From Cantharellus purpuraceus (Eukaryota; Basidiomycota; Agaricomycetes; Cantharellales; Hydnaceae): 64,000 bases of DNA. The notes under the pieces were generated by a model. That model ran no database searches. It saw nothing but the letters and a program-made list of their open reading frames with translations, and was not told where the DNA came from. This document shows positions 1,272 to 46,206 of the stretch, one piece after another; the stretch's first letter is position 1; each line of letters opens with the position of its first letter. The translations under genes were made by a program, and so were the position numbers. The stretch spans positions 1,922,001-1,986,000 of the forward strand of contig JALBUN010000023.1 of assembly GCA_025174535.1 (NCBI GenBank). Reading direction: 5' to 3'.

Positions 1272-2930
1272 ATGATTCCTAAGGAGTATCATGAGTTTGC
1301 CAACGTGTTCAGCAAGTCTAAAGCCAACTCCCTAGTGGGACACCGACCATATGATCTCAAGATTGAGTTGGATAATAACTCCACCCCTCCACTTGGCCCT
1401 ATCCACTCGCTATCCCAAAAAGAGCTACTGGCTCTCTGGACATTCATAGACAAGAACTTGGCCATGGGTTTCATCTGCCCATCCTTATCCCCCCCATGGA
1501 GCTCTGGTCCTATTTGTCCACAAAAAGGATGGATCACTCCATTTATGCATCAACTTCTGTGGACTCAACAAGATCACTAAGAAAGACTGATACCCAATAC
1601 CCCACACCACAGACCTACTTGAGAGCCCATGAAAGGCTAAGATCTATTTCAAAATAGATCTCTGACATGCCTATCATCTATTCCGCATCTGAGAAGGCAA
1701 TGAGTGGAAAACAACTTTCCACACTCGATATGGATCTTTTGAATGGTGTGTCATGCCCTTCAGACTAACCAATGCTCTGGCCACCTTCCAGCAGTTCACA
1801 AACAATACCTTTGCCAACCTCCTTGATGTTACTGTCCTTGTTTACTTGGATGACATTTTGGTATATTCAAATAACGAAGAAGAACATTGGACACACGTCC
1901 AAGAAGTACTCCAACGTCTCCAAAAACATGGCCTCTTCGCCTGCACTGACAAATGCGAATTCCACTCCAACTCAGTTGAGTATCTAGGCTATATCCTCTC
2001 CCCTGCAGGACTGACAATGTCCGATGACAAAATCAAAGCCATACAGGAATGGCTGGAACCCCGGAAAGTCAAAGATGTACAGTCCTTCCTGGGGTTCACC
2101 AACTTCTACTGCCGCTTCATCTACAACTACTCTGATATTACTGTTCTGCTCACCTGACTTACTAAGAAGGGTATCCAATGGAATTTCACTGATGAATGTA
2201 GACAGAGCTTTGAGACCTTGAAGAAGGCCTTTACTTCTGCTCTGATACTAACTCATTGGGTTCCAGATGTTCCTATCCTATTAGAGACCAATGCCTCTGA
2301 CTATGCACTTGCTGTGATCCTGTCCATCTGATCACTTTTCACTCACATACATTTACGCCCCCTGAACTGAACTATGATGTCCATGACAAAGAGCTCCTTG
2401 CCATATATGAAGCCTTCCAGATATGGAGACACTACCTTGAAGGCCCCTCCGATCCGGTGGACATCATAACAGACCACAAGAACTTGGAATACTTCTCCAC
2501 AATGAAACTACTCACCTGGAGACAGGTCCGATGGTCTGAATACCCGTCTCAGTTCAACCTCGTTATCCACTTCCATCCTGGTCGACTCGGAGCAAAGCCC
2601 ACCACGTTAACTAGATGCTGGGACGTCTACCCATGTAGCAACTATGCCACTGTAAACCCACACAACTTTCATCCTGTGTTCACTAACAAGCAGCTGGCAT
2701 CATCCCTATGGGCATCCACCCTCATGACTCCCACCCTCCAAGCTGTCACCATTATGGACATCGACCAATTCCACTCCAACATCCACTCATCACTCCAATC
2801 CAATCCTGTTGCAGTTAAACACTTGGATGACCCTTCCAATCCAAAGTGGTTGCTTGACCCCCTCCAACACAACAACCAGATATACATCCCCGATGCCAAT
2901 GGTCTCCAACTCCGAGTTTTGCAGTATTAT
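1272..2930 (+). pseudogene. pol: F0 reverse transcriptase and RNase H
   Basis: RT fingers/palm start at about 1272; the catalytic YLDD motif lies in YLDDILVYSNNEEEH (1753-2157 frame), followed by the VKDVQSFLGFTNFYCRFI thumb/connection. RNase H follows ([32 protein letters not shown]) to about 2600. Stops and frameshifts occur, including a TGA at about 2155 (LLT-stop-LTKKG) that is also present in F-2 at 30279, so that lesion predates both copies. The linker to integrase ends at the A1 LTR. Confidence 0.85.
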
Positions 2931-2933
2931 CAT

Positions 2934-3698
2934 TGTTGTTCCAGCTGCTGGACATCTAGCTGCTGGACTTCTGGGGAGCAAGGAGAGGAGAGGGGGATTA
3001 GAGGGGACAGGGGAGGAACAGGAGCATATAGGAGGCTCAGGAGGTTTGGAGGGGTGAAGGGGGTAAAGGAGGACGGTTATAGGAATGGAATAGGGAACAG
3101 GAGAAGCCCCTGTGAGTTCCAGAACTTCCTGGGCATTATTTCTCTTTTATTTTCATCATTTCATCATCATGGACATATCCCCCCATCATCATCTCATCAT
3201 CCATCCCATCATTGACTCAGGAAATTTACGAATGACTTCATTCATTCATAGGACTTAGTATCATATATAAATCACGTCTGTAATGCACTTGAAAAGACAG
3301 AGCAATTATCTCTCACATATTCTGTCTGCGTGTCTGAATCTATTTGTATCTGGAATATCTCCAGAACGAACGCGTATTTCTATTAGCTTTTGCATATTCT
3401 ATTAGAATATTGCATGTTGCACTCGAATCTCGAATCACGAAGCCATAAAATCACTGGCTACTTTTTTATTAAGCATTTACTCTCGTTCGAGTCATCTGCT
3501 CCTGATCCCTGCTCAAATTGTCAATATCTAGACGAAGACTACACCAAATCCCATCAAACTTCATACGAGGATACTCCCAAGATATATCTCCAATTAGACT
3601 GCGCATACATCGTGTTCCCACCACTGCTCCATTTTCTATTCGACTTCTGCTCATCACTACACCCCAGCAAGGCAATTATTCACATTATTCAAATAACA
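2934..3698 (+). repeat. LTR A1 (765 bp, TGTTGTTCC...AAATAACA)
   Basis: Begins TG and ends CA; a second copy lies inverted at 9443-10145. The left flank is F0 pol (ATCAT) and the right flank is B-element gag (GGAAG), so there is no target-site duplication. It is probably the product of recombination between two A insertions or a deletion. It contains a short stretch (about 3470-3530) that A2 lacks. No internal region of an A element is present anywhere in the window. Confidence 0.8.
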
Positions 3699-4530
3699 GG
3701 AAGAGGTTCATAACTTCAACACATGAACTTCTGAGACAAGAAGTCCTCAAGAAGGGCTTCAATGCCAAGTTTAGCAGTATCAAGCAGTTATACAAAACTG
3801 CTCAAATGATAGAGGAAGTGACGCAATACCACCATGGTATGTGATGCCCAGAGAATGCGACTAACACATCCTCCTCAACCCATAGACCAGTAGTCAATAG
3901 AACTACTGGTATGATCAATATGGGTAGTTGACCCATGCCCCATGGACATGTGTTATGGCTCCCACACACACTCATGACAAGTGAGTGTTCAAAGTTGGAA
4001 CCCCATAATGGAAGCTCCAGGTCCAATTCCAACAATTACCTTTTCAAGGGTAATTATCAATCAAAGCCACCAGCACATGTGAGTGGTGATCAATTGAACA
4101 ATGTTACTAGTAACGTTGTGTGCTAAAAATGTGGCCAGACAGGTCACATGCAGCCCAGCTGCCCCAAACTAAAGGGCAACATAAGGTTGGCTGTGGTCCG
4201 AAAGGATGTGTCCTCACACATAGTGGAGGACAATGTAGACAGATTCTCCCTGATAGAAGGAGAACATGAAGAAGCAATGGATGATCCCAAGGACCATCTA
4301 GAGGAAAAAATACCAGCTATAGAAGTGGCTGATGAATGGGATGAAGAGGTTGCCCCATACAAATGGGACAACCAAGATGATGCCCCGAAAAGGAGGCTAC
4401 ACCAATGTATTGCTCCAATGCAATATGAATTTGACCCAATGATTGAATTCCACCGAAACACACCTATGCAGTGTGTTTCTGTAGTGCAACAAGATTCCCA
4501 AGAAGCAGGGAATCACAACAGCTGCATATA
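3699..4530 (+). pseudogene. gag: B1 gag C-terminus with CCHC knuckle
   Basis: Reads RFITSTHELLRQEVLKKG, then an Asn/Ser-rich linker and a zinc knuckle. At 4124-4170 the knuckle reads C-stop-KCGQTGHMQPSCP; the TAA replaces a residue between the first two cysteines. An acidic tail (IEGEHEEAMDDP...) follows. TGA stops also interrupt the capsid part near 3842 and 3928. The matching minus-strand copy at 44760-45588 shows the same order. MITE M1 starts directly after it. Confidence 0.75.
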
Positions 4531-5095
4531 GACGCTTGTTCAGAAATACAACAAATATGTATATACAACCTATTTTCCTCAAATTTTATACAATACACTT
4601 CAATTCAAACTTATTTTCATATTTCAACATGATTCTCAAATTTTACACAATATACTAGATTAAAACATATTGTGATATTTTGGCATAATTCTCAAAAATA
4701 ATTGTTTTTTCCCCATTTAGTGGTGGCAACTCTCTTGAAGGAACATCCAAATATCATTGATTCTTTCTTATACAATACTTATAACATAATTTGAACTATC
4801 TTTAATCCCCACCTGGTATTTGTATATCTAAATACCCTATATAATACCAATTATATTAATACATACATTCCTATTATATCCATGTAAATAATTATGTTCA
4901 TCTCAACCAAATATCTTATCTTTTAAAGTTTATTAAAATATAGAATATATGTTTATATTTATGAAAATTTCACACATCCGAAATCTTTTAAGATATCCAA
5001 ATTGTAACTCCCTGGCTTTATGTATCATTGAAATTCTGATGTATATCTCATATACATTAGAATATTGTATACTGACATGATTCCGAACAAGCGTC
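4531..5095. mobile_element. MITE M1 (565 bp, TIR GACGCTTGTTC, TSD ATA)
   Basis: The ends are inverted repeats (GACGCTTGTTCAGAAAT / ATTCCGAACAAGCGTC) flanked by ATA on both sides (4528-4530, 5096-5098). AT-rich, no coding capacity. It splits the B1 gag/protease region. It contains a hairpin (ATTCTGATGTATAT-type arms) next to one end. Four related insertions in the window also have 3-bp A/T-only duplications. Confidence 0.9.
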
Positions 5096-5098
5096 ATA

Positions 5099-6117
5099 GC
5101 TGCTGTCAGTGTCAACAGATCAGCCAAACCTATGTGTAATCATAGGAGCTGACAGAAGTTGACAGCGCAACCAGATAGACCATGCATAGACAATAAAACA
5201 ATCTCTGGGTATTGGGAGATTGGTGGAACACTAGCTCACTGTCTATTAGACAGTGGGAGTGAGGGGATAATGATATCCCCTGAATTCACATGCATGACAG
5301 GTATGAAAACCTTCATGCTAGAGGAACCCATCACGCTGCAATTAGCATGCATTGGGAGCAGGAATACCATAAATTATGGTACTCACACTACCATAAAGTT
5401 TGGTAGTTGAGACATTGAAGAATATTTTGATGTCACCAATGTTGAGTATTATGATGTAATACTCAGTACCCCATTCCTACAAAAGCTAGGAATATGCCTG
5501 GATGTTACACACCAGGTCCAATTGGGGGTCGGAGATTGGGTCAGAGGTTTCATCAGAGTCAGAGTATGTTGTGGGGGTCAGAACGGACTTGGCTTCAGCT
5601 TATGTGCTGCGCCCTCACTAATACTGGTGTCTGAGATTTCAGAGACGGAGTACAACTTAGAGAGTTAGGATTGGACTTAGGAACTAGGTGTGATTCAATA
5701 TTCAAACTGGGGAATGAAGTCCCCAGTTGGGCAACTTAAATACATATTTGAAATCTAATAATAATTACTCTGGTGATGGGTTTCCGAGGCCAATGGCCTT
5801 ACATGAGTATGTCCGAGTCTGATGGGGACGGATGTCCAGGTTCCTATGGTGATGCTGATGCATCAATCGGAACCAGAGATGGATGGGTGGAATTGGCAGT
5901 GACAATCAGACAGGTAGATGGAGACGTGGCGGTTTCCAAATGGAGTATAGATTTCATACATGCGGGGATCTGGGCGTTAATGAATATAGTCATAACACTG
6001 GACTTTAATGGCCCAGGTCAAATCATGATAGGAACTGAAGAAGTCCCCACCAATGAAGAGCATAATACCAATGCTCTTTGTACCCCATCACAGGGAATAA
6101 ACTCAATATGAAGAAGG
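5099..6117 (+). pseudogene. B1 aspartic protease, split by an F solo LTR
   Basis: Protease with active site LLDSGSEGIMISPEF at 5245-5285 (D-S-G intact), continuing to ILSTPFLQKLGICLD where the F LTR (5503-5997) enters. After the LTR and its duplicated CTGGA the frame resumes as DFNGPGQIMIGTEEVPTNEEH. Removing the LTR restores continuity with the minus-strand copy at 44200-44759. One TGA at about 5408 interrupts the frame. Confidence 0.75.
5503..5997 (-). repeat. Solo LTR of family F (495 bp, minus orientation, TSD CTGGA)
   Basis: Reads TGTTACACACCAGG...AGTCATAACA, the reverse complement of the F LTRs at 26082-26610 and 35203-35765. CTGGA is duplicated at 5498-5502 and 5998-6002. No internal F sequence accompanies it, so it is a solo LTR left by LTR-LTR recombination. 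It is short because the CCAACC-type minisatellite inside F LTRs has few units here. Confidence 0.92.
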
Positions 6118-6159
6118 AGTATTGGCATGAATAAATGACACCAAGGGGGCAACTCTAAA

Positions 6160-7730
6160 CATGAGCTACCCACAATGCAGTCCTTCCTAAAAGAAGGACT
6201 AGACTCAGTAAAGGACCCCTTAATGGAGGATCCAAATAAGAGCACAAGGCAAATAGCTTTGTCTTGTGAAGGATCAACCACTTACACAGCTGATCAGATC
6301 CCTCAGTTGAGGGATCAATGGAAAGAAAAGTACGCTGACCTATTCAGCAGCATACCCTTAGAACTTCCCCCATTTAGGGAAGTTAACCACAAGATTAATC
6401 TCATGGATCCTGACAAGTGAATACATTATCACTTGCCTAAGTGTCCAGAGCACTACAGAACTTTCAGAGAAAGTCCTGTGATACACCACTGCTAAATGGT
6501 GGGTATCGGCTACAGCCTGACAGGCTATGCCAATGCTATGCATTCCCAAGAAAAATGGAAAGCTCCACACCATGTTCGACTTGTGTGAACAGAATGATAA
6601 TATGGTGAAGGATGTAATGCCCTTCCCCAATCAGGACAACATTAGACACAACGTTGCCTGCTGTACATATCAATCTAAACTCGATATTTCTGAGGTGTAT
6701 GAACAGATACACATCAGACTGATGGATATACCCAAGATGGCATTTGCAACTGTCTTGGGGACATTCATCAGTCAAGTCATGCAGCAAGGGGACTGCAATG
6801 CCCCCTCAACATTTCAGTGGCTCATGACTGCCATCTTTTGAGAATATATCAGAAGATTCATCCATGTATCTCTGGACAACATATTTGTGTACTCTTGTAC
6901 TATACGAGAGCACAAACACCACCTAGAGATGGTATTCACTGAACTCAGAAAAGCACATATGTTCCTGAGCAAGGATAAGATTGATCTATACTCAACGAGT
7001 ATGGATTGCCTTGGTCACCTAATAGATGACCAAGGTGTGCATGCAGATGCTGATAAAATGCAGTGAATACAAGAGTGGAGACAACCTAGGTCGTACCATG
7101 AAGTCCAATGTTTTCTTGGACTAGTGCAGTATCTGGCACACTATATGCCAGATATAACTGCATACACAACCCCTTTATCAGGTTGTGCTTGTAATAATTG
7201 TCCATTCTTATGGACACCATTGCTGGAGAAATGCTTTGAAAGCATTAAGCTCCTAGCATGTAGGGCTCCAATATTGAAGCCCATCAATGTCAATAACCCT
7301 GATACTATTTGGGTTATTACTGACGGCGCCAAAACTGGAGTTGGAGCTGTCTATGGACAAGGAAAAGATTGGCAGACCTGTTGGCCTGCCAGATTCCTAT
7401 CCAAGAAATTTAGTGCTGCACAACAGCACTATAAGACCCATGAGCACAAGACTATAGCCATGCTTGAAGCCCTAATGAAATGAGAAGATAAGCCACTAGG
7501 ACAAACATTTGTCCTAGTAACCAGCCACAAGGGTCTCGAATACTTCAAGACCCAAAAGAACCTGTCTCCTAGACAGGTTAGGTGGTGGGAGTTCTTATCC
7601 CATTTCAACTTTACTACCCTGCATATAGACAGGGTAGAGAACAAAGTAGCAGACTGTCTGTTGCACTACTATGCTGATGACTCCCCAACAGAGAGTCATC
7701 CCAACTACATCTATGTGAACACAGATGTAT
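6160..7730 (+). pseudogene. pol: B1 reverse transcriptase and RNase H
   Basis: RT motifs in order: LCIPKKNGKLHTMFDLCEQND (6527 on), YQSKLDISEVYEQIHIR, FATVLGTFISQVMQQGDCNAPSTFQ, then HVSLDNIFVYSC. The B3 copy at 43386-43760 has SLDD, so the second catalytic Asp is Asn in B1. RNase H follows (WVITDGAKTGVGAVYGQG, EHKTIAMLEALMK, VTSHKGLEYFKTQKNLSPRQVRWWEFL). Stops at 6418, 6495, 6839, 7063 and 7483 make it non-functional. Confidence 0.88.
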
Positions 7731-8135
7731 GTCTTGACCCAGAAGGAGAACTGCTCCCCACAGAATGGTTTGTTGAGATCAGGACAGCAGCAGTCACCCG
7801 AAGGTGACTGCTCAAGAAAAAAGAAAACAGAGTGCTAGAAGCTGAAGCACTCAATGTTCAAACAGAATCATTGAATGATGATTCTAATTCCTCTAAAGAA
7901 ATAGAGGACATTGGAGTGATGTCATCAGATGATGATGGAACACCATTGTGATCCCATGTTGAGCATGGGATCAACCTTGTGCAGATTGTATGAGGCACAT
8001 ATAGAAAGGATACTGTCCTTTCTAAGGTGCTGGAAGCACCTAAAGAGCACGCATGATTTGGTGTGCGTGATGGTCTAATATGGACCAAAAATATATACAA
8101 ACGTGATGTTGTCTGTATACCCCACTCAGCGTTCC
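7731..8135 (+). pseudogene. B1 region between RNase H and integrase, integrase N-terminus
   Basis: Follows RNase H (YYADDSPTESHPNYIY, LDPEGELLP) and contains an acidic linker (DDSNSSKEIEDIGVMSSDDDG) and the approach to the integrase zinc domain (DGLIWTKNIYKRDVVCIPHSAF). It is interrupted by TGA stops and cut at 8136 by LTR E1. The same stretch is found at 46816-47050 and in part, inverted, at 41877-41962. Confidence 0.7.
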
Positions 8136-10270
8136 TGTTTTGGAACCCGCAAAATTATGGTGTTAGGGCAAACTCTAAATCACCACAATTCCATGAATGA
8201 ACAGCTGAGAAGAATATCAAACCCTGCTGCAGCACAACTCCAGAAACAATTTAATGTTTGTACTTTGGTTACAATCCTTTGTATTGGTCAATGCAGACTA
8301 TATGCAGAAAAGTAATATGTTTCTTAGCAGCAAGAAATGAATGAGACTTCCAGAGTCTAGAGTTCATGGATGCTTAGGGGTCCAGATATTCTGAAAAGAG
8401 GGGAATGCACTTAGAGGCTAAAGGAAGTAGGTGGATGAATCCAACCATCCAACCAGTGGCACTCTGAAGCAGGTAACAGCTATGTGTGAAGAAGTCTAGC
8501 AACTGCTTCACACAAGTTCAAGCTTCTAATGCTCTGCAAAGGCAGTACACACTAGTAACTTAAACAAGAGCACTAATGGCAGGACTATCAACAGACAATC
8601 TCACCCTGTAGATTCGTAGTCACATGAGGCAGATACTACACTCACGCCCAAAGCAGGAATATCACTACTTCGAGTGCAACCAAGTACAGTTACACAACTG
8701 TAAAAGATCCTTGAACTGGTAATCAACAGTTACTGAGATATAGAGGATGACACTGTATGTCACTCTAGTCACACTGGTGTGCAGAAGATGGGTAGAAGTG
8801 GTAGAATATGTTATTATTTCAGAGGCAGAATGACCTCCTTATATATTTTATTTACAGGGGCTGACTAATGGTTCTGGAATATTCTACCTATTAATAGATG
8901 GAAACTACTGGAAGGTTGTGGAAGGTGGAAGAAAGGGGTAGAATATTCCAAGCCAATCACAGGTTCTGATCACTGCACTAACACTGATCAGGAGCTGAGT
9001 AATGGCTCTGGAAAGTTCTATCTAATGATAGAAGGAAACAGCTAGAATGTTATGAAAGGGGTAGAATATTCCAAGGCAATCACCTGATCTGATCATCAAT
9101 CACCTGCTCTGATCCCTGAACTAGGCACTGATAAGGCAAAAAGGAGGGTATCCACCCTGTTTTCTGCACTGGTTTGGACAGCCATGGATAGCCACATCTC
9201 AGGTGATGATCTCCATGGAAAATAGTGCCCTGAGAGGCTGTGGTAAAGTTACAGAATATTTATTGATCAGAGACATCTGAGCTTGAATTCAGGCCAAATG
9301 CCTGGTCCAAAGGTGGAGAGCCGGCTGTGTGAAGGTTTGTGGGCACCTATGGGTCCACAACTGTAGCACAGCAGAATAAGAGCATTCTGGGCTGAGTTCT
9401 GCATGGAATATTCCTGAAAAAATATGGAAAAATAGAGAATATTGTTATTTGAATAATGTAAATAATTGCCTTGCTGGGGTGTAGTGACGAGCAGAAGTCA
9501 AATAGAAAATGGAGCAGTGGTGGGAACACGATGTATGCACAGTCGAATTTGAGATATATCTTGGGAGTATCCTCGTATGAAGTTTGATGGGATTTGGTGT
9601 AGTCTTCGTTAAAAAAATAGCCAGTGATTGTATGGCTTTGTAATTTGAGATTCGAGTTGGATATGCAATATTCTAATAGAATATGCAAAAGCTAATAGAA
9701 ATACGCGTTTGTTCTGGAGATATTCCAGATACGAATAGATTCAGACACACAGACAGAATAAGTGAGAGATAATTGCTCTATCTATTCAAGTGCATTACAG
9801 ATGTGATTTATATATGATACTAAGTCCTATGAATGAGTGAAGTCATTCGTAAATGTCCTGAGTCAATGATGGGATGGATGATGAGATGATGATGGGGGGG
9901 AAGTGTCCATGATGATGAAATGATGAAAATAAAAGAGAAATAATGTCCAAGAAGTTCTGGAACTCACAGGGGCTTCTCCTGTTCCCTATTCCATTCCTGT
10001 AACCGTCCTCCTTTACCCCCTTTGTCCCTCAAAACCTCCTGAGCCTCCTATATGCTCCTGTTCCTCCCCTGTCCCCTCTAATCCCCCTCTCCTCTCCCTT
10101 CTCCCCACAAGTCCAGCAGCTAGATGTCCGGCAGCTGGAACAACAAATATTTGAATAAGTCCATTCCAGGCACAAGCACTAAATATATGCTGATATTTAG
10201 GAATGGAAAAGCAAAGTATAGCACATTGGTGCTGCATAAATAGGATTTGATAGGGAAAAGGTGGTTCCCA
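8136..10270 (+). repeat. LTR E1 (TGTTTTGG...GGTTCCCA), interrupted by solo LTR A2
   Basis: The E sequence runs 8136-9442 and resumes at 10151-10270 after A2 is removed. Copies: E2 at 36287-37665 (1,379 bp) and E3 at 52041-53020 (truncated). Left flank is B1 integrase and right flank is F gag, with no duplication, so the unit was reshaped by recombination. It contains short hairpins (for example TGTGTGAAG at 8483-8491 with CTTCACACA at 8516-8524). A 50-60 codon open stretch at its start recurs in all three copies but has no recognisable domain. Confidence 0.75.
9443..10145 (-). repeat. Solo LTR A2 (703 bp, minus, TSD AATAT)
   Basis: Reverse-complement copy of LTR A1. AATAT is duplicated at 9438-9442 and 10146-10150, inside LTR E1. 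This proves an independent insertion followed by solo-LTR formation, and rules out A1 and A2 being terminal inverted repeats of one 7-kb DNA transposon. It lacks about 60 bp present in A1. Confidence 0.92.
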
Positions 10271-10913: not shown

Positions 10914-11179
10914 TGTAAGTAGCCAAGGTACTTACCATAGTATATAATTATAATTGATGTATGCAGCATTCCATTAAGGAATGCTGTCTTCTTGGTAGAT
11001 ATATGTGCCCATAGGGTGCATATGTATAGTTATTATGTAAGCCAGTGGACCCAAGTACACGTGTGGGTCCACATATAGTAGACAGACCTTAGTAAACAAC
11101 CACACTGTACAGCACATCACACAACCAATATACTTGGTTGAGTTCTGTGTAACAGTGTGAAATAAGACACCAATTTACA
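10914..11179 (+). repeat. 5' LTR of B element (266 bp, TGTAAGTAG...CAATTTACA)
   Basis: TG...CA sequence directly upstream of the B gag leader. Inside it are perfect inverted repeats CAGCATTCC/GGAATGCTG (10964-10986) and GTGGACCCA/TGGGTCCAC (11045-11072). No second copy is in the window, so the boundaries rest on the TG/CA ends and the position before gag; the right-hand LTR of this B copy has been lost. Confidence 0.65.
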
Positions 11180-11370
11180 CTTTTTTGAACTTCCAAAGGA
11201 AGAATCAATTAATTCTTCCTCATTATTGAAGTTTTCTAGTCAATACTAGAAAACCAGTTGTTGCTGGTGTACAGATGTATACCAACCCCCCCAGTTGCTC
11301 ATATAAGTGAGCAACTAGTAGACTAACTTACTTAGTCTACAAAGATAGAAGAAAGAAAGGAGTCATCATA
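11180..11370 (+). other. B leader with a run of five perfect hairpins
   Basis: Non-coding leader between LTR and gag start. Consecutive inverted repeats with 9-bp arms: AGGAAGAAT/ATTCTTCCT (11197-11220), GTTTTCTAG/CTAGAAAAC (11231-11254), AGTTGCTCA/TGAGCAACT (11293-11316), GTAGACTAA/TTAGTCTAC (11318-11340) and AGTCATCAT/ATGATGACT (11361-11379, across the ATG). A structured leader could act in packaging or dimerisation of element RNA; that role is inference. Confidence 0.75.
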
Positions 11371-12725
11371 ATGATGACTTGCAGTAGAGTGAGTCATGCT
11401 GGCAGTGCACAGGGCATCATAAATGATGAATGGCAGCATGTAGTCAGCAGCAGAAGCTCCCATGAAGGGGAGCTAGACCCTAGAGAAGTCATAGGGACTT
11501 CTCATAAGGAGGACTCTAGGAGAGAGTCATTGTGGTCACAAGACCACACAGACCATCACACAATAGATTGTCTGTCAAACAGGAACCCCTCATCAAGTGG
11601 TTCTCTGATTAGAGAAGAAAGCAGGGGACAGTCATTAACTGCCTCCAATGTTCCTAAAGGAAAGGGACATGCTCAATATATGAGCACAAGTAGAAGTAGC
11701 CATACTTCTTGGGAATCACACAGCACAGAGTGGCATGAAACCCACAGGTCAATCACAAGATTGGCTGAACAACTCATGCATAATCAACATGAGATGGAGA
11801 GCATTAGCAAAGCTAGTGCTCAGGCAGCCAAGATGGCTGCTGAAGCAGGACATGCTGCCACTACTATGGGGCAGCAAATTGCAGAGATAGGAACGATGTT
11901 AAAATTGCTCCAAGAGAACTCTGAGTGATGCAAGTCACATTGCCAAAGATCAGATTCTTGACAAGAATCTGAATCTGGAGAGTCTGGATCTCCCTGGGGT
12001 GAGAGGATCCAACTGAATGATTGGTTGGACAGAGGAAATGAGATTCCCCCAATGGAGGGAATCAGAGACCCAGTAATCCCTGTAAGGCAAGAATTACCAA
12101 TCCAGATTGAAGAGGAAACTCCTCAATCTATGGCAAAGGAGCTCAATCAAGAGATCAAGCTATTGGAACAACAAGAAGTTGAGGCTTCTTGTAAACACAG
12201 ATTAGCCCTCGAATGGAAGGCTAAACATGCAGAGCAGGAGCTCAGCCAGCTGTTTAGAGAGCAGTGGCCCCAGCAAGAGCTCAATGTGGCTGTCAACTTA
12301 AACCAACAGTCATGACATGTGCTGAACAGTTATCAGCATGTACAAGCAGCGGGCCTTTCAGGAGACACCCACCATGAGCAATGAGATACCCAATGGGTAC
12401 CTCAAGAAGATGTTCCCCATAACAGAGAACAACCAGTGCCATTGACCTAGAAGGTCAAGGCATACTGGATCAATTGGATACAATTGATCCTATTGACGGC
12501 ATTACTCGCATGGTGTGAGTAGCCATAGTCAATAATAGAGATGCAGACCCAGAGAAGTCTGTACTTGCCAAGGTGGGCATTAAGGTATTGCCTCCTGAGC
12601 AATACGCAGGAGGTGCAGATCTTAAAGACTTCAAGATCTTTGTAGCAGGCATGCTGTGATGGCTGAAGATGAATAATCTTCTAGGGCCATCAAGTACAAA
12701 GTTTTAACTATTGTACTTAGGCACT
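11371..12725 (+). pseudogene. gag: B gag N-terminal half
   Basis: The first ORF (11371-11928, 185 aa) begins MMTCSRVSHAGSAQG and contains a Ser/His/Glu-rich region, ending in a helical segment (MESISKASAQAAKMAAEAGHA). After frameshifts and stops it continues (AKELNQEIKLLEQQEVEAS at about 12130, then YAGGADLKDFKIFVAGM at about 12600). It stops at about 12725, where G sequence begins; the rest of this gag lies, inverted, at 45100-45588. The coding region is also hairpin-rich (for example GAGAAGTC/GACTTCTC and TGTGGTC/GACCACA at 11480-11550). Confidence 0.7.
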
Positions 12726-12734
12726 ACAGAGTGG

Positions 12735-14148
12735 TGACGAGCCAGGATGCATCGAGGACGCATATCGAACCACTCTGACAGTCCAACTCCACCAGCGTCT
12801 TTTCGTATCAACTTTTAAATAGCGCCGCAACTCCCTATCCACCTCAGTCTCTAATTCGAGCCATCGATTGTCACTCGTGTTTCATCGCCATCGATCATTA
12901 TCAGCTTTCTATTCACACCAATCCTTTCATCATCATTCACATGGCTTCCCATTCTATTCCCCTCTCCAACATCACTTCTAATAATACGTCACACTGGTCT
13001 CTGGACACAGAGGACTATCAAAAATACGCCGAGCTCCATGGGCATGTTAAGCCACCTCCACGTGTCAAAATACTTCCAAAACTCTTTCAACATCCAAGAT
13101 TCCCACCATGTCTCTCTTATGCCATTGGCGATCCCATATTCTTTCACAATTCTGTTGAACCATATACATTCCTCGACATTTCACCTCTATATCGTAACAC
13201 GGATAGAAGAGTCGAACGTGAGGTAGAATTTCAGTCGCCATTGCCGACCTATCCTCCCACTTCAATCCGACTCAGGTTACATCGTGTCAGGCAAAGGGAC
13301 CAAATACTCTTGGAGCAGGATACCATATGGAGACGGATCACTAAGACAATAAGGAGTATTTGTTGTGGAAGCTGACGGAAGTCCTCATGTGACTCAGGGT
13401 CAATTAACCTTTGGAGCCGTAGGGAAGATGGTATTGGTGGACATTTCTATTGTTCTTTTATATGACTCACCCCTGTTTCATCTTTTAATTCATTCATACA
13501 CAACTTACTCATCCTTGTTCTATTTTTGGTTCTTTTATTACTCATCGCCCCCTATTCTTACAAAGATTACCCCTATCTGTCGTTTCATTTCTCCATGATT
13601 TCCCCTTTAGTAGTTCAACTTCACACGCTTTGTCAGCTGGCTTGATCAGCATTTCTTGCATCATATCGCATCATTTGCTCCTCATATTGTGTCGTTGTCC
13701 CCCGGGGATTTGTATATAAAAGGGCGCTAGTCTTCGCCTTTGGAATCAATTAACAAGTTTTCAGCCAACGCTCTAAAGTCAAAGTCCACGCTCTAAGTCT
13801 ACGCTCTACGCTCTACATCACAATCCATCATCTCTACACCGAGGTAAACACCTTGGTTCAACGATCAGATTTCCCTCCGCCACCGAGAGGTTGATTCTCC
13901 TGAAACCAGCTTTCGCGTACCTCCCAACCGGGCTCCGCATTGTCATCCAGTCACAGAGCACGATCAGCCATCGGGACCGACCTTTTGCTCCCATCCTCAT
14001 CCAACCACAGAGCACTATCCCACTTCCCTGTTACGTACTCCTCGCCCTGATTGATCTTTGGAGTGCTGAACAACTGCGTTACACACCGTCTGCTTGCTAG
14101 GACCGTTGCGCGCAGGCTTATAGGATCTATTCCTTAAGCGAACCGACA
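12735..14148 (+). repeat. Solo LTR D1 (1,414 bp, TSD GTGG)
   Basis: TGACGAGCC...AACCGACA flanked by GTGG (12731-12734, 14149-14152). Five copies occur in the window, three with perfect 4-bp duplications (GTGG, CCGG, CCGT), and none has an internal region. It has a TATA box (TATATAAA, 13713-13720) followed by a run of ACGCTCTA-type short repeats, as expected of a U3/R promoter. The first half carries an ORF (see next entry), which is unusual for an LTR. Confidence 0.9.
12941..13375 (+). CDS. 144-aa ORF inside the U3 of LTR D1
   Basis: Open from MASHSIPLSNITSNNTSHWS to a TGA. Central motif LSYAIGDPIFFHNSVEPYTFLD, then a basic Arg-rich tail (DRRVEREVEF, RLRLHRVRQRDQ). D3 keeps the frame (143 aa), differing by an in-frame 3-bp indel; D2 and D4 have a TGA at the Arg codon after PPTSI. 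The motif resembles YYIGDPLFIGNYDIPYAF in the small ORF downstream of integrase in C1 (23386-23655). No known domain is recognised. Whether it is translated is unknown; it may be a captured third ORF of the element. Confidence 0.5.
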   Translation: MASHSIPLSNITSNNTSHWSLDTEDYQKYAELHGHVKPPPRVKILPKLFQHPRFPPCLSYAIGDPIFFHNSVEPYTFLDISPLYRNTDRRVEREVEFQSPLPTYPPTSIRLRLHRVRQRDQILLEQDTIWRRITKTIRSICCGS

Positions 14149-28603: not shown

Positions 28604-29871
28604 TGATGAGCCAGGACGCATCGAGGACGCATATCGAACCACTCTGACAGTCCAACTCCGCCAGCGTCTTTTCGTATCAACTTTTAAATAGCGCCACAAC
28701 TCCCTATCCACCTCAGTCTCTAATTTGAGCCATTGATCGTCACTCATGTTTCATCACCATCGATCATTATCAGCCTTCTATTCACACCGATCCTTTCATC
28801 ATCATTCACATGGCTTCCCATTCTATTCCCCTCTCCACTCTCTTATGCCATTGGCGATCCCATATTCTTTCACAATTCTGTTGAACCATATACATTCCTC
28901 GACATTTCACCTCTATATCGTAACACGGATAGAAGAGTCGAATGTGAGGTAGAATTTCAGTTGCCATTGCTGACCTATCCTCCCACTTCAATCTGACTCA
29001 GGTTACATCGTGTCAGGCAAAGGGACCAAATACTCTTGGAACGGGATACCATGAGACGGATCACTAAGACAATAAGGAGTATTTGTTGTGGATGCTGACT
29101 GAAGTCCTCATGTGACTCAGGGTCAATTAACCTTTGGAGCCGTAGGGAAGATGGTATTGGTGGATGTTTCTATTGTTCTTTTATATGACTCACCCCTGTT
29201 TCATCTTTTAATTCATTCATACACAACTTACTCATCCTTGTTCTATTTTTGGTTCTTTTATTACTCATCGCCCCCTATTCTTACAAAGATTACCCCTATC
29301 TGTCGTTTCATTTCTCCATGATTTCCCCTTTAGTAGTTCAACTTCACACGCTTCATCAGCTGGCTTGATCAGCATTTCTTGCATCATATCGCATCATTTG
29401 CTCCTCATATTGTGTCGTTGTGCCCTGGGGATTTGTATATAAAAGGGCGCTAGTCTTCGCCTTTGGAATAAATCAACAAGTTTTCAGCCAACGCTCTAAA
29501 GTCAAAGTCCACGCTCTAAGTCTACGCTCTACGCTCTACATCACAATCCATCATCTCTACACCGAGGTAAACACCTTGGTTCAACGATCAGATTTCCCTC
29601 CGCCACCGAGAGGTTGATTCTCCTGAAACCAGCTTTCGCGTACCTCCCAACCGGGCTCCGCATTGTCATCCAGTCACAGAGCACGATCAGCCATCGGGAC
29701 CAACCTTTAGCTCCCATCCCCATCCAACCACAGAGCACTATCCCACTTCCCTGTTACGTACCCCTCGCCCTGATTGATCTTTGGAGTGCTGAACAACTGC
29801 GTTACACACCGTCTGTTTGCTAGGACCGTTGCGCGCAGGCTTATAGGATCTATTCCTTAAGCAAACCGACA
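28604..29871 (+). repeat. LTR D2 (1,268 bp, no TSD, internal deletion)
   Basis: Copy of D1 starting TGATGAGCC (usual TGACGAGCC) and ending AACCGACA, lacking about 145 bp within the ORF region (near 28838). The left flank is the F-2 LTR (CTGA) and the right flank is F-2 RT (GCGT). Unequal flanks and missing gag/protease indicate recombination between two D LTRs inserted in F-2. Confidence 0.88.
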
Positions 29872-30761: not shown

Positions 30762-31326
30762 GACGCTTGTTCGGAATCATGTCAGTATACAATATTCTAA
30801 TGTATATGAGATATACATCAGAATTTCAATGATACATAAAGCCAGGGAGTTACAATTTGGATATCTTAAAAGATTTCGGATGTGTGAAATTTTCATAAAT
30901 ATAAACATATATTCTATATTTTAATAAACTTTAAAAGATAAGATATTTGGTTGAGATGAACATAATTATTTACATGGATATAATAGGAATGTCTGTATTA
31001 ATATAATTGGTATTATATAGGGTATTTAGATATACAAATACCAGGTGGGGATTAAAGATAGTTCAAATTATGTTACAAGTATTGTATAAGAAAGAATCAA
31101 TGATATTTGGATGTTCCTTCAAGAGAGTTGCCACCACTAAATGGGGAAAAAACAATTATTTTTGAGAATTATGCCAAAATATCACAATATGTTTTAATCT
31201 AGTATATTGTGTAAAATTTGAGAATTATGTTGAAATATGAAAATAAGTTTGAATTGAAGTGTATTGTATAAAATTTGAGGAAAATAGGTTGTATATACGT
31301 ATTTGTTGTATTTCTGAACAAGCGTC
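30762..31326. mobile_element. MITE M3 (565 bp, TSD TTA)
   Basis: GACGCTTGTTCGG...CTGAACAAGCGTC flanked by TTA (30759-30761, 31327-31329). F0 at about 2608 shows the unoccupied site (ACGTTAACTAG). Same length as M1 but opposite orientation. No ORF with coding character. Confidence 0.93.
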
Positions 31327-37698: not shown

Positions 37699-39109
37699 TG
37701 ACGAGCCAGGACGCATCGAGGACGCATATCGAACCACTCTGACAGTCCAACTCCACCAGCGTCTTTTCGTATCAACTTTTAAATAGCGCCGCAACTCCCT
37801 ATCCACCTCAGTCTCTAATTCGAGCCATCGATTGTCACTCGTGTTTCATCGCCATCGATCATTATCAGCTTTCTATTCACACCAATCCTTTCATCATCAT
37901 TCACATGGCTTCCCATTCTATTCCCCTCTCCAACATCACTTCTAATAATACGTCACACTGGTCTCTGGACACAGAGGACTATCAAAAATACGCCGAGCTC
38001 CATGGGCATGTTAAGCCACCTCCACATGTCAAAATACTTCCAAAACTCTTTCAACGTCCAAGATCCCCACCATGTCTCTCTTATGCCATTGGCGATCCAA
38101 TATTCTTTCACAATTCCATTGAACCATATACATTCCTCGACATTTCACCTCTATATCGTAACACGGATAGAAGAGTCGAACGTGAGGTAGAATTTCAGTC
38201 GCCATTGCCGACCTATCCTCCCATTTCAATCCGACTCAGGTTACATCGTGTCAGGCAAAGGGACCAAATACTCTTGGAGCAGGATACCATGAGACGGATC
38301 ACTAAGACAATAAGGAGTATTTGTTGTGGAAGCTGACGGAAGTCCTCATGTGACTCAGGGTCAATTAACCTTTGGAGCCGTAGGGAAGATGGTATTGGTG
38401 GACATTTCTATTGTTCTTTTATATGACTCACCCCTGTTTCATCTTTTAATTCATTCATACACGACTTACTCATCCGTGTTCTATTTTTGGTTCTTTTATT
38501 ACTCATCACCCCCTATTCTTACAAAGATTACCCCTATCTGTCGTTTCAGTTCTCCATGATTTCCCCTTTAGTAGTTCAACTTCACATGCTTTGTCAGCTG
38601 GCTTGATCAGCATTTCTTGCATCATATCGCATCATTTGCTCCTCATATTGTGTCGTTGTGCCCTGGGGATTTGTATATAAAAGGGCGCTAGTCTTCGCCT
38701 TTGGAATAAATCAACAAGTTTTCAGCCAACGCTCTAAAGTCAAAGTCCACGCTCTAAGTCTACGCTCTACGCTCTACATCACAATCCATCAGCTCTACAC
38801 CGAGGTAAACACCTTGGTTCAACGATCAGATTTCCCTCCGCCACCGAGAGGTTGATTCTCCTGAAACCAGCTTTCGCGTACCTCCCAACCGGGCTCCGCA
38901 TTGTCATCCAGTCACAGAGCACGATCAGCCATCGGGACCGACCTTTTGCTCCCATCCTCATCCAACCACAGAGCACTATCCCACTTCCCTGTTACGTACT
39001 CCTCGCCCTGATTGATCTTTGGAGTGCTGAACAACTGCGTTACACACCGTCTGCTTGCTAGGACCGTTGCGCGCAGGCTTATAGGATCTATTCCTTAAGC
39101 GAACCGACA
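37699..39109 (+). repeat. Solo LTR D3 (1,411 bp, TSD CCGG)
   Basis: TGACGAGCC...AACCGACA flanked by CCGG (37695-37698, 39110-39113) inside the F-1 antisense gene; the unbroken sequence is seen in F-2 at about 33910. Carries an intact 143-aa ORF at 37905-38336 (MASHSIPLSN...), nearly identical to that of D1 except for an in-frame 3-bp difference, and the TATATAAA promoter near 38675. Confidence 0.93.
37905..38336 (+). CDS. 143-aa ORF inside LTR D3
   Basis: Same product as in D1: LSYAIGDPIFFHNSIEPYTFLD core and basic tail, open to a TGA. Differences from D1 are mostly single substitutions plus one 3-bp indel (DTMRRIT against DTIWRRIT), so the frame is preserved in both. Unrecognised protein; expression unproven. 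Confidence 0.45.
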   Translation: MASHSIPLSNITSNNTSHWSLDTEDYQKYAELHGHVKPPPHVKILPKLFQRPRSPPCLSYAIGDPIFFHNSIEPYTFLDISPLYRNTDRRVEREVEFQSPLPTYPPISIRLRLHRVRQRDQILLEQDTMRRITKTIRSICCGS

Positions 39110-41098: not shown

Positions 41099-41103
41099 CC
41101 CTT

Positions 41104-41606: not shown

Positions 41607-41876
41607 GACACTTGTTCAGAATCATGTCAGTATACAATATTCTGATGTATATGAGATATACATCAGAATTTCAATGATACATAAAGCCAGGGAGTTACAA
41701 TTTGGATATCTTAAAAGATTTTGGATGTGTGAAATTTTCATAAATATAAACATATATTCTATATTTTAATAAACTTTAAAAGATGAGATATTTGGTTGAG
41801 ATGAACATAATCATTTACATGGATATAATGGGAATGTATGTATTAATATAATTAGTATTATATAGGATATTTAGAT
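41607..41876. mobile_element. MITE M4, first part (cut by inversion)
   Basis: GACACTTGTTCAGAATC... through the ATTCTGATGTATAT-GAG-ATATACATCAGAAT hairpin to TATTTAGAT, where it stops. The missing second part is at 46524-46815 in the opposite orientation. Flanking TAA here and TTA at 46521-46523 are reverse complements, as expected if one MITE was split by an inversion. Confidence 0.82.
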
Positions 41877-41962
41877 GTTCAGCTTCCAGCACTCTGTTTT
41901 CTTTTTTCTCAAGCAGTCACCTTCAGGTGACTGCTGCTGTCTTGATCTCAACAAACCATTCC
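41877..41962 (-). pseudogene. B fragment between RNase H and integrase
   Basis: Reverse complement of the B1 stretch at about 7765-7845, including the hairpin AGCAGTCACC/GGTGACTGCT (here with loop TGAA instead of CGAA). Its left edge GTTCAGCTTCC is the inversion breakpoint: its continuation (CACTCAATG...) is at 46816. Continues into 42535 once M5 is removed. Confidence 0.75.
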
Positions 41963-41965
41963 ATA

Positions 41966-42531
41966 GACGCTTGTTCGGAATCATGTCAGTATACAATATT
42001 CTGATGTATAGGAGATATACATCAGGATTTCAATGATACATAAAGCCAGGGAGTTACAATTTGGATATCTTAAAAGATTTTGGATGTGTGAAATTTTCAT
42101 AAATATAAACATATATTCTATATTTTAATAAACTTTAAAAGATGAGATATTTGGTTGAGATGAACATAATCATTTACATGGATATAATAGGAATGTATGT
42201 ATTAATATAATTGGTATTATATAGGGTATTTAGATATACAAATACCAGGTGGGGATTAAAGATAGTTCAAATTATGTTACAAGTATTGTATAAGAAACAA
42301 TCAATGATATTTGGATGTTCCCTCAAGAGAGTTGCCACCACTAAATCAGGAAAAAAAGAATTATTTTTGAGAATTATGCCAAAATATCACAATATGTTTT
42401 AATCTAGTATATTGTGTAAAATTTGAGAATCATGTTGAAATATGAAAATAAGTTTGAATTGAAGTGTATTGTATAAAATTTGAGGAAAATAGGTTGTATA
42501 TACGTATTTGTTGTATTTCTGAACAAGCGTC
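41966..42531. mobile_element. MITE M5 (566 bp, TSD ATA)
   Basis: GACGCTTGTTCGG...CTGAACAAGCGTC flanked by ATA (41963-41965, 42532-42534), inserted in B sequence; B1 at about 7760 shows the empty site. Very similar to M3 in sequence and orientation. Contains the same terminal hairpin with one or two changes. Confidence 0.93.
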
Positions 42532-42534
42532 ATA

Positions 42535-43860
42535 GGGAGCAGTTCTCCTTCAGGGTCAAGACATACGTCTGTGCTCATGTAGATGTAGTTGGGATGACTC
42601 TCCATTGGGGAGTCATCAGCATAGTAGTGCAACAGACAGTCTGCTACTTTGTTCTCTACCCTGTCTACATGCAGGGTAATAAAGTTGAAATGGGATAAGA
42701 ACTCCCACCACCTAATCTGTCTAGGAGACAGGTTCTTTTGGGTCTTGAAGTATTCGAGACCCTTGTGGTTGGTTACTAGGACAAACTTTTGTCCTAGTAG
42801 CTTATCTTCCCATTTCATTAGGGCTTCAAGCATGGCTATAGTCTCATGCTCACGAGTCTTATAGTGCTGTTGTGCAGCACTAAATTTCTTGGATAGGAAT
42901 CTGGCAGGCCAACAGGTCTGCCAATCTTTTCCTTGTCCATAGATGGCTCTGACTCCAGTTTTGGAGCTGTCAGTAATAACCCAAATAGTATCGGGGTTAT
43001 TGACATTGATGGGCTTCAATATTGGGGCCCTACACACTAGGAGCTTAATGCTTTCAAAGCATTTCTCCAGCAATGGTGTCCATAAGAATGGACAATTATT
43101 ACAAGCACAGCCTGATAAAGGGGTTGTGTATGCAGTTATATCTGGCATATAGTGTGCCAGATACTGCACTAGTCCAAGGAAATGTTGGACTTCATGGTAT
43201 GACCTAGGTCGTCTCCACTCTCATATTCGCTGCATTTTATCAGCATCTGCATGCACGCTTTGGTCATCTATTAGGTGACCAAGGCAATCCATACTTGTTG
43301 AGTATAGATCAATCTTATCCTTGCTCAGGAACATATGTGCTTTCCTGAGCTCAGTGAATACCATCTCTAGGTGGTGTTTGTGCTCTCATATAGTACAAGA
43401 GTACACAAATATGTCATCCAGAGATACATGAATGAATCTTCTGATATATTCTCGAAAGATGGTGGTCATGAGCTGCTGAAATGTTGAGGGGGAATTACAG
43501 TCCCCTTGCTGCATGACTTGGCTGACAAATGTCCCCAAGATGGTTGCAAATGCCATCTTGGGTATATCCATTGGCCTGATGCATATCTGTTCATATGCCT
43601 CAGACATGTTGAGTTTAGATTGATATGTACAGTGGGCAACATTGTGTCTGATGTTGTCCTGATTGGGGAAGGGCATTATGTCCTTCACTGTATTATCATT
43701 CTGTTTGCGCAAGTCAAACACAGTGCAGAGCTTCCCATTTTTCTTGGGAATGCATAGCATTGGTACAGCCTGTCAGGCTGTAGCTGGTACCCACCATTTA
43801 GCAGTGGTGTATTGCAGAACTTTCTCTGAAAGTTCTGCTCAGTAGTGTTCTGGGCACTTA
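42535..43860 (-). pseudogene. pol: B reverse transcriptase and RNase H (B3 part)
   Basis: Minus strand: IPKKNGKLCTVFDLRKQND, YQSKLNMSEAYEQICIR, FATILGTFVSQVMQQGDCNSPSTFQQLM, HVSLDDIFVYSC (43386-43760, catalytic DD present), then QYLAHYMPDITAYTTPLSG, WVITDSSKTGVRAIYGQG, EHETIAMLEALMKWEDKLLGQ and EYFKTQKNLSPRQIRWWEFLSHFN. Better preserved than B1: the RNase H frame is open for 256 codons and runs into M5. Part of the inverted block. Confidence 0.88.
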
Positions 43861-44759
43861 GGCAAGTGATAATGTATTCACTTGTCAGGATCCATGAGAT
43901 TAATCTTGTGGTTAACTTCCCTAAATGGGGGAAGTTCTATGGGTATGCTGCTGAATAGGTCAGTGTACTTTTCTTTCCATTGATCCCTCAACTGAGGGAT
44001 CTGATCAGCTGTGTAGGCAGTTGATCCTTCATGAGACAAAGCTATTCACCTCATGCTCTTATTTGGATCCTCCATTGGGGGGTCCTTTACTGAGTCTAGT
44101 CCTTCTTTTAGGAAGGACTGTGTTGTGGGTAGCTTCTGTTTAGAGTTACCCCCTTGGCGTCATTTATTCATGCCAATACTCCTTCTTCATATTAAGTTTG
44201 TACCCCATGACAGGGTACAAAGAGCATTGGTATTATGCTCTTCATTGGTGGGGACTTCTTCAGTTCCTATCATGATTTGGCCTGGGCCATTAAAGTCCAG
44301 GCATATTCCTAGCTTTTGTAGGAATGGGGTACTGAGTATTACATCATAATACTCAACATTGGTGACATCAAAATATTCTTCAATGTCTCAACTACCAAAC
44401 TTTATGGTAGTGTGAGTACCATAATTTATGGTACTCCTGCTCCCAATGCACACTAATTGCAGTGCAATGGGTTGCTCTAGCACAAAGGTTTTCATACCTG
44501 TCATGTGTATGAATTCAGGGGATATCATTATCCCCTCACTCCCACTGTCTAATAGACAGTGAGCTAGTGTTTCACCAACCTCCCAATACCCAGGGATTGT
44601 TTTATTATTTATGTGTGGCCCATTGGGTTGCACTGTCAACTTCTGTCGGCTCCTATGATTATACATAGGTTTGGCTGATCTGCCAATGCTGACAGCAGCT
44701 ATATGCAACTGTTGTGATTCCCTGCTTGTCAGGAATCTTGTTGCACTACAGAAATGCAC
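43861..44759 (-). pseudogene. B aspartic protease and connection to RT (B3 part)
   Basis: Minus strand: HFCSATRFLTSRESQQLHIAAVSIG, PHINNKTIPGYWEVGETLAHCLLDSGSEGIMISPEFIHMTGM (D-S-G intact, about 44560), ending in a TGA after HTTIKFGS at the same place as in B1, then the linker with GTEEVPTNEEHNTNAL. No F LTR is present here, so this copy shows the pre-insertion state of B1 at 5498. Confidence 0.8.
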
Positions 44760-45588
44760 TGCATAGATGCATTTCGGTGGAATTTGATCATTGGGTCAAA
44801 TTCATATTGCATCAGAGTGATACATTGGCATAGCCTCCTCTTCAGGGGCATCATCTTGGTTGTCCCATTCATATGGGGTGATCTCCTCATTCCATTTGTC
44901 AGCTACTTCTATAGCTGGCATCTTTTCCTCTAGATGGTTGGGATCATCCATCACTTCTTCATGTTCTCCCTCTATTGGGGAGAACCCATCTACATTGTCC
45001 TCCACTATGTGTGAGGTCATGTCCTTTCGGACTGCAGCCAACCTTATGTTGCCCTTTAGTTTGGGGCAGCTGGGTCACATGTGACCTGTCTGGCCACATT
45101 TGTAGCACACAATGTTACTGGTAACATTGTTTGATTGATCACCACTCACATGTGCTGGTGACTTTGATTGATAATTACCCTTAAAGGAGTAATTGTTGGA
45201 ATTGAACCCAGAGCCTCCACTATGGGGTTCTGGCCTTGGCGCACTTGCTTGTCATGAGTGTGTATTAGGAGCCATATACACACATCCATGGGCATGGGTC
45301 AACTCCCTGCATTCATCATACCAGTAGTTCTATTGACTACTGGTCTATGGGTTGAGGAGGACATGTTAGTCATGTTCTCTGGGTGTCACATACCATGGTG
45401 GTATTGTGTTGCTTCCTCTATCATTTGAGCAGTTTTGTACAACTGCTCAATACTGCTAAACTTGGCATTGAAGCCCTTCTTGAGGACTTCTTGTCTCAGA
45501 GGTTCACACATTGTGGTTATGAACCTCTTCCTGTACATGTATGTGTCTGGCAGCATTATCATGCAGCCTGCATACTTATCTAGATCAT
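44760..45588 (-). pseudogene. gag: B gag C-terminal half (B3 part)
   Basis: Minus strand from 45588: LDKYAGCMIMLPDTYMYRKRFI, LRQEVLKKGFNAKFSSIEQLYKTAQMIEEATQYHHGM, Ser/Asn linker, knuckle CYKCGQTGHM-stop-PSCPKLKGN, and acidic tail. It directly adjoins the G LTR at 45589; turned round, it continues the B gag that breaks off at 12725. This is how G is placed inside B. Confidence 0.78.
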
Positions 45589-46206
45589 TGTTACATCCTG
45601 TAACACCAAGTCCAATCTCCAGACTCCATCTCCAACTCCATCTCCATCTCCCTACTTCACCTCAACTCCACCTTCATCAACTCCAAACTCCTTTTCTTAT
45701 TGTTCTCCATAAGCAGTTTCTTCTTATGGGGTACAACAAGCCCCTTCTTTTATATTGCTTAGTATAGTTTGGACTTGGGTCCAAACTCCAAACTCCTTTC
45801 CATGTTGTACTCCATATCTGTCTTATTGTTTTTCGTTTTAGTTTTAGCATTCAATTCTCCACATACTTATATGGGCTACTTTCTGTCTATTACAGTGGTT
45901 CATATATCAACTAAGATTTGTCCCATCAACTTCTTGGTTGCTAGCTTCTTGACAAGTACCTTCTTGACAAGTCAAACTCTGGATCCCTGATCCAACTCCG
46001 TACTCCAAACTCTGAAATATTGGACTGACAATCCAAGGGGGTGCAACACACAAGTTGAAGCTAAGTCCACTCAATCTGACTCAATAGTATTGCTCCCACT
46101 CTGTCTCCTGTTGAACTGGAACAGTAAAGTCCCACTCCTCTCTATTACTAGCAGCCTAACTCCAGTTACTCCTTTTGAACTTCCAAGCATTCCAGCACCT
46201 TAACAG
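45589..46206 (+). repeat. 5' LTR of G (618 bp), inverted relative to the rest of G
   Basis: Starts TGTTACATCC (45589 region) and ends CACCTTAACA; the reverse complement matches the solo LTR at 55945-56622 and, in part, 14149-14663. Followed by gag leader (GTATATACAAACTAC) on the plus strand. The body of G is on the minus strand, so this end was flipped by the 41877-46815 inversion. Confidence 0.85.

Follow-up and report, generated by a model that had tools for sequence, protein, structure and literature searches.

Short perfect hairpins saturate a Ty3/Gypsy-type retrotransposon family of Cantharellus purpuraceus and may have been written by fold-back of its own strands

The window is a stretch of 64,000 nucleotides of the Cantharellus purpuraceus genome (40.15 Mb in 50 contigs), located on contig JALBUN010000023.1 (C23:1922001-1986000). 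It contains pieces of a repeat family, here called B, which by its sequence is a retrotransposon of the Ty3/Gypsy type. The B copy at window positions 3696-8137 is interrupted by two nested inserts. The longest B copy used, L032, served as the reference and contains B at positions 1517-7505 and ~8070 to 9342, split by a 564-bp element. The features of the window are as follows.

3696..4531, + strand: piece a of B copy 1, in the gag region; 87% identical to L032
4531..5092, + strand: 564-bp element with terminal inverted repeats (TIR element), nested in B copy 1 and not part of B
5096..5502, + strand: piece b of B copy 1, in the protease region; 92% identical to L032; the corresponding region of copy L024 matches Pfam RVP_2
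5998..8137, + strand: piece c of B copy 1, running from reverse transcriptase through RNase H into the putative integrase region; 90.8% identical to L032
7495..7518, + strand: hairpin within the RNase H coding sequence, with 11-bp arms and a 2-nt loop
7789..7812, + strand: hairpin with loop CGAA, which is TTCA in 3 of 28 aligned copies
10914..12725, + strand: 5′ part of a B copy, terminal/leader and gag-like region; 88% identical to L032:1517-3313
11231..11254, + strand: hairpin with 10-bp arms and a 4-nt loop in the non-coding leader
11311-11928, + strand: open reading frame in the gag-like region of the B piece at 10914..12725
41869..41964, − strand: short additional piece of B copy 2; 89.8% identical
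42531..45589, − strand: main piece of B copy 2; 88.4% identical to L032
46816..47071, + strand: extra B piece with the hairpin of the preliminary description at 46928; 93% identical
30765-31323, 41969-42528 and 41611-41876, together with L032:7506-8069: further places of the TIR element

The window also contains tandem arrays. The period is 12 bp in one (40617-41144) and 24/30 bp in the other, which occurs at 34493-35059 and again at 39639-40121. Four copies of one further element (12735-14145, 28604-29868, 37699-39106 and 48310-49721) are 98-100% identical over several stretches and 78-79% over others.

The domain order of B is protease, reverse transcriptase (RT), RNase H, and a putative integrase. 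The aspartyl protease upstream of the RT is recognised by RVP_2 above its cut-off (23.5 of 20.3) in L024, and piece c was assigned from Pfam RVT_1 and RT_RNaseH matches in copy L020. The RT-RNase H is of the Ty3 type, with the Ty3-type RT/RNase H 4ol8 as its best solved match (E 2.4e-22) and the Ty3-G polyprotein 7q5b as the second, and both enzymes are ordinary by family match. In the integrase region of copy L006, the score of SH3_Tf2-1 just equals the threshold for that family (30.0 for both) and the score of rve falls short of its own (23.3 of 32.6), and the integrase piece of B has blastp matches to peptides of 10 Ty3 relatives. The gag region represented by piece a encodes a CCHC-like motif, present in the peptide of copy L025, which we take to be a zinc knuckle. 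The domain order and the type of enzyme are those of Ty3/Gypsy elements (Metaviridae) such as yeast Ty3. B differs from them in its hairpin saturation and in continuing beyond the integrase, where a hairpin-rich stretch is common to four copies (L039-L042). Self-comparison of the three longest copies (L031-L033), which stop short of the 3′ end of B, identified a few direct repeats only and no paired long terminal repeats (LTRs), so that the label "LTR" used in the preliminary description found no terminal repeat to attach to in these copies. A search of viral contigs found no relatives of B.

A 1.5-kb piece of B has at least 48 matches in the genome, with 40 of 182 candidates scored, and the longer ones, the window's own aside, are 85-93% identical. 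The RT-RNase H peptide has more than 100 genome matches, fragments counted singly, at 71% identity or above, followed by a gap down to 33%. The loci L001, L002, L003, L008, and L009 duplicate the places of the window, L031, L032, and L033 and were left out of the counts, all of which come from one genome. The B copies at C1:3861484, C35:79775, C37:34142, and C37:57228 are equal in score, identity, and stops, which suggests recent segmental duplication; two of them share the 81-kb contig C37, and the one on C1 is close to the end of that contig. In L036, the copy on C1, the 5′ part and the RT are in opposite orientation.

The saturation of B with hairpins is real and stronger than first described. 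One perfect short hairpin occurs per ~60-75 bases of coding and non-coding sequence alike, about 15 times the number expected by chance. All 19 hairpins listed in the preliminary description are exact perfect inverted repeats at their coordinates, the one at 5237-5255 passes through the LLDSG codons of the protease as had been claimed, and the chance estimate given there (0.2 per kb for arms of at least 8) agrees with shuffled sequences. With loops of 0-12 nt and arms of at least 7, the 7,262 nt of L032 contain 101 perfect inverted repeats (5.9±2.7 in dinucleotide-preserving shuffles), and the segment L032:1517-7505 contains 79 (4.9±2.3), or 42 with arms of at least 8 (1.2±1.0). At this stricter length the coding and leader sequences of the window are likewise far above shuffles, with 24 hairpins in the pieces of B copy 1 (3699-4528, 5096-5502, and 5998-8135; 3,375 nt; 0.6±0.7 shuffled) and 12 in the 10914-12725 piece (0.4±0.7). 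In the whole window, 95 inverted repeats with loops of 1-12 nt (13.6±3.4 expected) cluster in B. Permutation of synonymous codons in the coding parts of B leaves 4.9±2.2 of the 53 observed, with a maximum of 12 in 200 shuffles, and neither dinucleotide nor codon usage accounts for the density of hairpins. All B sequence examined, 116.8 kb, contains 1,344 perfect inverted repeats with arms of at least 7, and the same hairpin can be present in as many as ~35 aligned copies, which lie on different contigs.

The hairpins that cross genes are built by codon choice. The reading frame is known for 53 of the 79 hairpins, and these are distributed over the three possible codon pairing phases as 24, 22, and 7 (p=0.008); the rarest phase is the one that uses codon position 3 least. 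The codons in arms are as conserved relative to other Ty3 elements as the remaining codons (p=0.80). Together, the phases and the conservation indicate that coding filtered the hairpins. Arms of at least 9 are concentrated in the 5′ leader and the post-integrase region, with 12 in 1,177 nt compared to 20 in 6,060 nt elsewhere (p=0.003), where the two regions were delimited visually and the post-integrase one may or may not be coding. These longer arms match a process restrained by coding.

Eleven other Ty3/Gypsy loci of the same genome (L043-L053) exhibit a weak two-fold excess of arms of at least 7 (51 observed, 25.6 expected), and 153.9 kb of non-B sequence contains 235 perfect inverted repeats where 108 are expected. 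Therefore, among the sequences examined, the saturation belongs to B, which alone of these Ty3/Gypsy elements carries it. A putative second hairpin-rich element at L032:7506-9901 proved to be mostly the integrase end and 3′ part of B itself. By their position, the other non-B hot spots of hairpins can be read as mostly the 3′ continuation of B.

The excess has a distinct shape. Split by exact arm length, the ratio of observed to expected inverted repeats is 1.02 at an arm of 3, 1.04 at 4, and 1.18 at 5, and then rises to 2.7 at 6, 9.2 at 7, 16.7 at 8, and 39 at 9. The enrichment thus begins at an arm of 6, and it stops near a loop of 12: in L032:1517-7505, arms of at least 7 with loops of 13-15 nt number 2 compared to 1.45 expected, and longer bins are near expectation. 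Loops of 4-8 nt are the commonest. The excess in L032 is in inverted repeats (101 observed, 6.5 expected), whereas mirror repeats (1 and 4.8), direct repeats (19 and 19.0), and same-direction complements (16 and 10.0) show nothing comparable. Past the first mismatch, the pairing frequency is 0.18-0.31 at offsets of 2 to 15, around a background of 0.25, and the first mismatch itself is G-T in 10 and A-C in 19 of the 79 hairpins. The palindromes of B are exact Watson-Crick, sharp-edged, and local, and the other elements examined lack them, from which we infer a cause specific to B. At L032:8785-8971, four adjacent hairpins have related arms (GAACTACC or GAGCTACC) and loops of 8, 7, 1, and 10 nt, as if a single hairpin had been copied repeatedly with new loops.

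RNA phages are known for selected RNA structure, which is ordered on the scale of the genome, and MS2, Qbeta, and GA were used as a positive control for such selection. They contain 7, 17, and 6 perfect stems, respectively, or 30 when pooled, compared to 53 stems with one mismatch (G-T 17, A-C 8, other 28; in Qbeta alone, G-T 5 and A-C 5). In L032, the 101 perfect stems are accompanied by only 35 with one mismatch (G-T 9, A-C 14, other 12), a ratio different from that of the pooled phages (p=4e-8). The contrast in G-T to A-C ratio between B and the phages is non-significant on its own (p=0.08 and 0.12). When each alignment column was represented by the majority of copies, and a CpG-prone pair was accepted as paired once 15% or more of the copies pair there, the perfect stems of 7 bp or longer numbered 121, and the stems with one mismatch (G-T 17, A-C 19, other 30) exhibited no preference for G-U over A-C. 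A stricter one-mismatch test gave G-T 46, A-C 43, and other 47 over all aligned copies, and G-T 3, A-C 0, and other 2 in L032:1517-7505 alone.

Folding of B RNA resulted in local z-scores of about -3.7 to -4.0, with the two strands alike (-3.98 and -3.80, p=0.51). The strands of MS2 differ (p=0.012), whereas the differences in Qbeta (p=0.08) and GA (p=0.35) are not significant, and the comparison of strands is a weak test of selection on RNA. The G+C content of the arms (0.44, background 0.43) was dropped as an argument against such selection, because it is at background in B and the phages alike and is uninformative. B resembles the hairpin-rich phages in that both strands fold better than shuffles and local hairpins dominate; however, its stems are mostly perfect and without preference for G-U, whereas those of the phages are mostly imperfect. 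Of the two causes proposed in the preliminary description, globally structured RNA was rejected: the excess is local, pairing is at background right past the arms, G-U is not favoured, and the strands fold equally. The other, template switching, gained partial support: it would account for stems that are exact and sharp-edged, and loop inversions between copies, described below, agree with it.

Decay of the B copies is mainly a change of CpG to TpG/CpA, and TGA predominates among the in-frame stops listed for them; both would result from cytosine methylation of repeats. The earlier impression that loop bases change while arms stay did not hold. The cited cases are CpG decay: the TTGAG/TCAAG loop is TCAAG in 12 copies, TTGAG in 9, TCGAG in 5, and TTGAA in 2, and the CGAA of the CGAA/TGAA loop persists in 3 copies; overall the pattern is mostly CpG decay and ascertainment. 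If hairpins are defined as perfect in L032, shared variants affect 27/1125 arm and 27/380 loop positions (p=8e-5), and arms appear clearly more conserved than loops. This difference mostly vanishes with the union set of hairpins (p=0.047, loop-flip positions excluded), in which shared non-CpG variants affect 79/2021 arm positions and 105/2163 positions of other sequence (p=0.15). The frequencies of rare variants in arms, loops, and outside are 0.236, 0.230, and 0.225, or 0.258, 0.207, and 0.211 with the union set. With fair ascertainment, no constraint on arms is measurable in the recent family history recorded by the aligned copies.

Pairs that changed on both sides and are still paired comprise 133 types, 112 of them CpG, 18 other transitions, and 3 transversions; the last all lie within ~30 nt of an alignment end, two in one column. 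Since every CpG of an arm has a CpG as its partner in the opposite arm, CpG decay alone can mimic compensation, and double transitions restore pairing by themselves. The search for compensatory substitutions among B copies, which may be too young for it, detected nothing beyond CpG decay. Among the aligned copies, which are close to each other, no homogenisation of an arm by a multi-nucleotide change was observed, and no asymmetry between the 5′ and 3′ arms that would indicate the direction of copying or the derived arm was detected in B (p=0.84). Counts over copies are non-independent because of shared ancestry, and the joined data contain 186 distinct hairpin centres. Copies gapped in the loop, loops shorter than 3 nt (in the loop test), columns with fewer than 8 copies, and, where stated, CpG-prone columns were left out.

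Some loops are inverted between copies. Inversions were scored in purine-pyrimidine space, ignoring transitions, and those with at least three transversions occur in 4/996 hairpin-centred windows compared to 3/76,079 others (p=9e-7), where all three non-hairpin matches were counted even though, at the level of letters, two are not exact inversions, and one sits where an alignment ends. With exactly two transversions, one inversion-like window is hairpin-centred and 24 are not. Inverted loops were found at five B hairpins, at L032 positions 1618 (3/28 copies), 5256 (2/32), 6210 (3/33), 6590 (3/28), and 9030 (2/25). The TTCA loop at window 7789..7812 can be explained if the loop was first inverted to TTCG and its CpG then decayed; none of the aligned copies has TTCG. 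In four of the five groups, the copies that share a flip have no group-specific variant, which suggests that flips recur. Pattern searches of the genome with two mismatches allowed found the hairpin at 5256 flipped 3 times and unflipped 78 times, and that at 9030 flipped 4 and unflipped 57 times.

The TIR element, which has one 14-bp hairpin with loop CTC, provides a control. Flipped loops were found in none of the nine intact copies examined first, but exact matches of the hairpin and its flank throughout the genome comprise 177 with the unflipped CTC and 38 with the flipped GAG. Flips are commoner in this element (38/215, exact) than at the two B hairpins (7/142, two mismatches allowed). The control rules out loop inversion as proof of templating specific to B: flipping is not special to B and is insufficient alone to explain it.

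We give about an even chance to the unproven reading that fold-back templating during the replication of B wrote the palindromes, which were then filtered by coding. While B is replicated, most probably by reverse transcription, the growing strand would fold back on itself, use its own arm as template for a few bases, and return to the original template. Near-palindromes would be converted into perfect ones, and many cycles, together with the protein-coding filter, would result in a saturated element. After insertion, the copies decay mainly at CpG, and some loops of 3-4 nt are flipped by a process that is not specific to B. Three points weigh most against fold-back: enrichment has a threshold at 6-7 bp, an unrelated element has flipped loops too, and no event of homogenisation was caught; a simple exponential model of tract length predicts enrichment of arms of 5, which are barely enriched (1.18-fold).

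A sharp onset at 6-7 bp is what a stability threshold would give, if selection had favoured many short, local, stable hairpins in the RNA or cDNA of B and tuned codon choice to them. Such hairpins could serve as packaging sites along the RNA, protect against nucleases or silencing, or pace reverse transcription. The prevalence of loops of 4-8 nt, the local folding scores, the equal coverage of leader and genes, and the construction of coding hairpins by synonymous choice, at no measurable cost to the protein, are in line with this selection. However, G-U is not above A-C across copies, imperfect stems are scarce, unlike in the pooled phages, pairing does not continue past the arms, and arms are not measurably more constrained than other sequence (p=0.15). 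Hairpin loops of 13-20 nt closed by arms of at least 7 are energetically acceptable, yet they occur near chance (6 compared to about 3.8). The contrast with the phages, the coding filter, and the longer arms in the leader and past the integrase favour fold-back over selection for local hairpins, which is a serious though less probable alternative. Template switching of the host at palindromes in nuclear DNA, of which B would merely show the most, could account for flipped loops in both B and the TIR element and for the two-fold excess of arms of at least 7 outside B, but it leaves the lack of saturation in the 11 other Ty3/Gypsy loci and the 153.9 kb of non-B sequence unexplained. Moreover, dead copies of B exhibit no homogenisation, and their rare variants are not depleted in arms (0.236, elsewhere 0.231, for L032-perfect hairpins; 0.258 and 0.211 for the union set), which makes a host-level process improbable. 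Chance, composition, codon bias, or an artefact of counting can practically be dismissed, as contradicted by both kinds of shuffle (dinucleotide and synonymous), by the control families, by the counts of direct and mirror repeats, and by the recurrence of hairpins across the aligned copies.

Full-text literature searches, with subscription journals mostly outside their reach, found no hairpin-saturated retrotransposon described in titles and abstract openings. The structure of Ty3 RNA is reportedly the subject of one published paper. According to the accessible text of two studies, template switching homogenises the arms of inverted repeats and inverts their spacers in yeast genes (Abraham & Hazkani-Covo 2021, PMC8604942), and, when DNA is replicated, such switching is able to generate RNA hairpins and to keep them intact (2022, PMC8794818). 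B resembles the mutations described there in its exact reverse-complement arms, short loops, and inverted loops of 3-4 nt. However, those mutations are, in the same text, scattered in host or RNA genes, whereas B has about a hundred palindromes in one family, and the homogenisation of arms was not directly observed in B. Fungal GalEa elements of the Copia type have, in the accessible text, a Conserved Hairpin Site, a single hairpin directly 3′ of the 5′ LTR (PMC5445492); both are hairpins in a fungal LTR retrotransposon, but GalEa has one site and B is covered throughout.

The hairpin of the TIR element, with more than 200 exact copies, is a natural counter of the flipping of palindrome loops in this genome. 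Reverse transcriptases normally make fold-back errors rarely, and such errors are difficult to observe. If these errors, or an equally strong selection for hairpins, have shaped more than 7 kb of B, mutational drive and selection could be tested against each other at some hundred sites simultaneously. We tentatively propose, at somewhat less than even confidence, that B is a self-palindromising retrotransposon, in which a fold-back bias rewrote much of the element's genome, genes included, mostly silently. If this is true, B would represent a mutational drive at the scale of a whole element.
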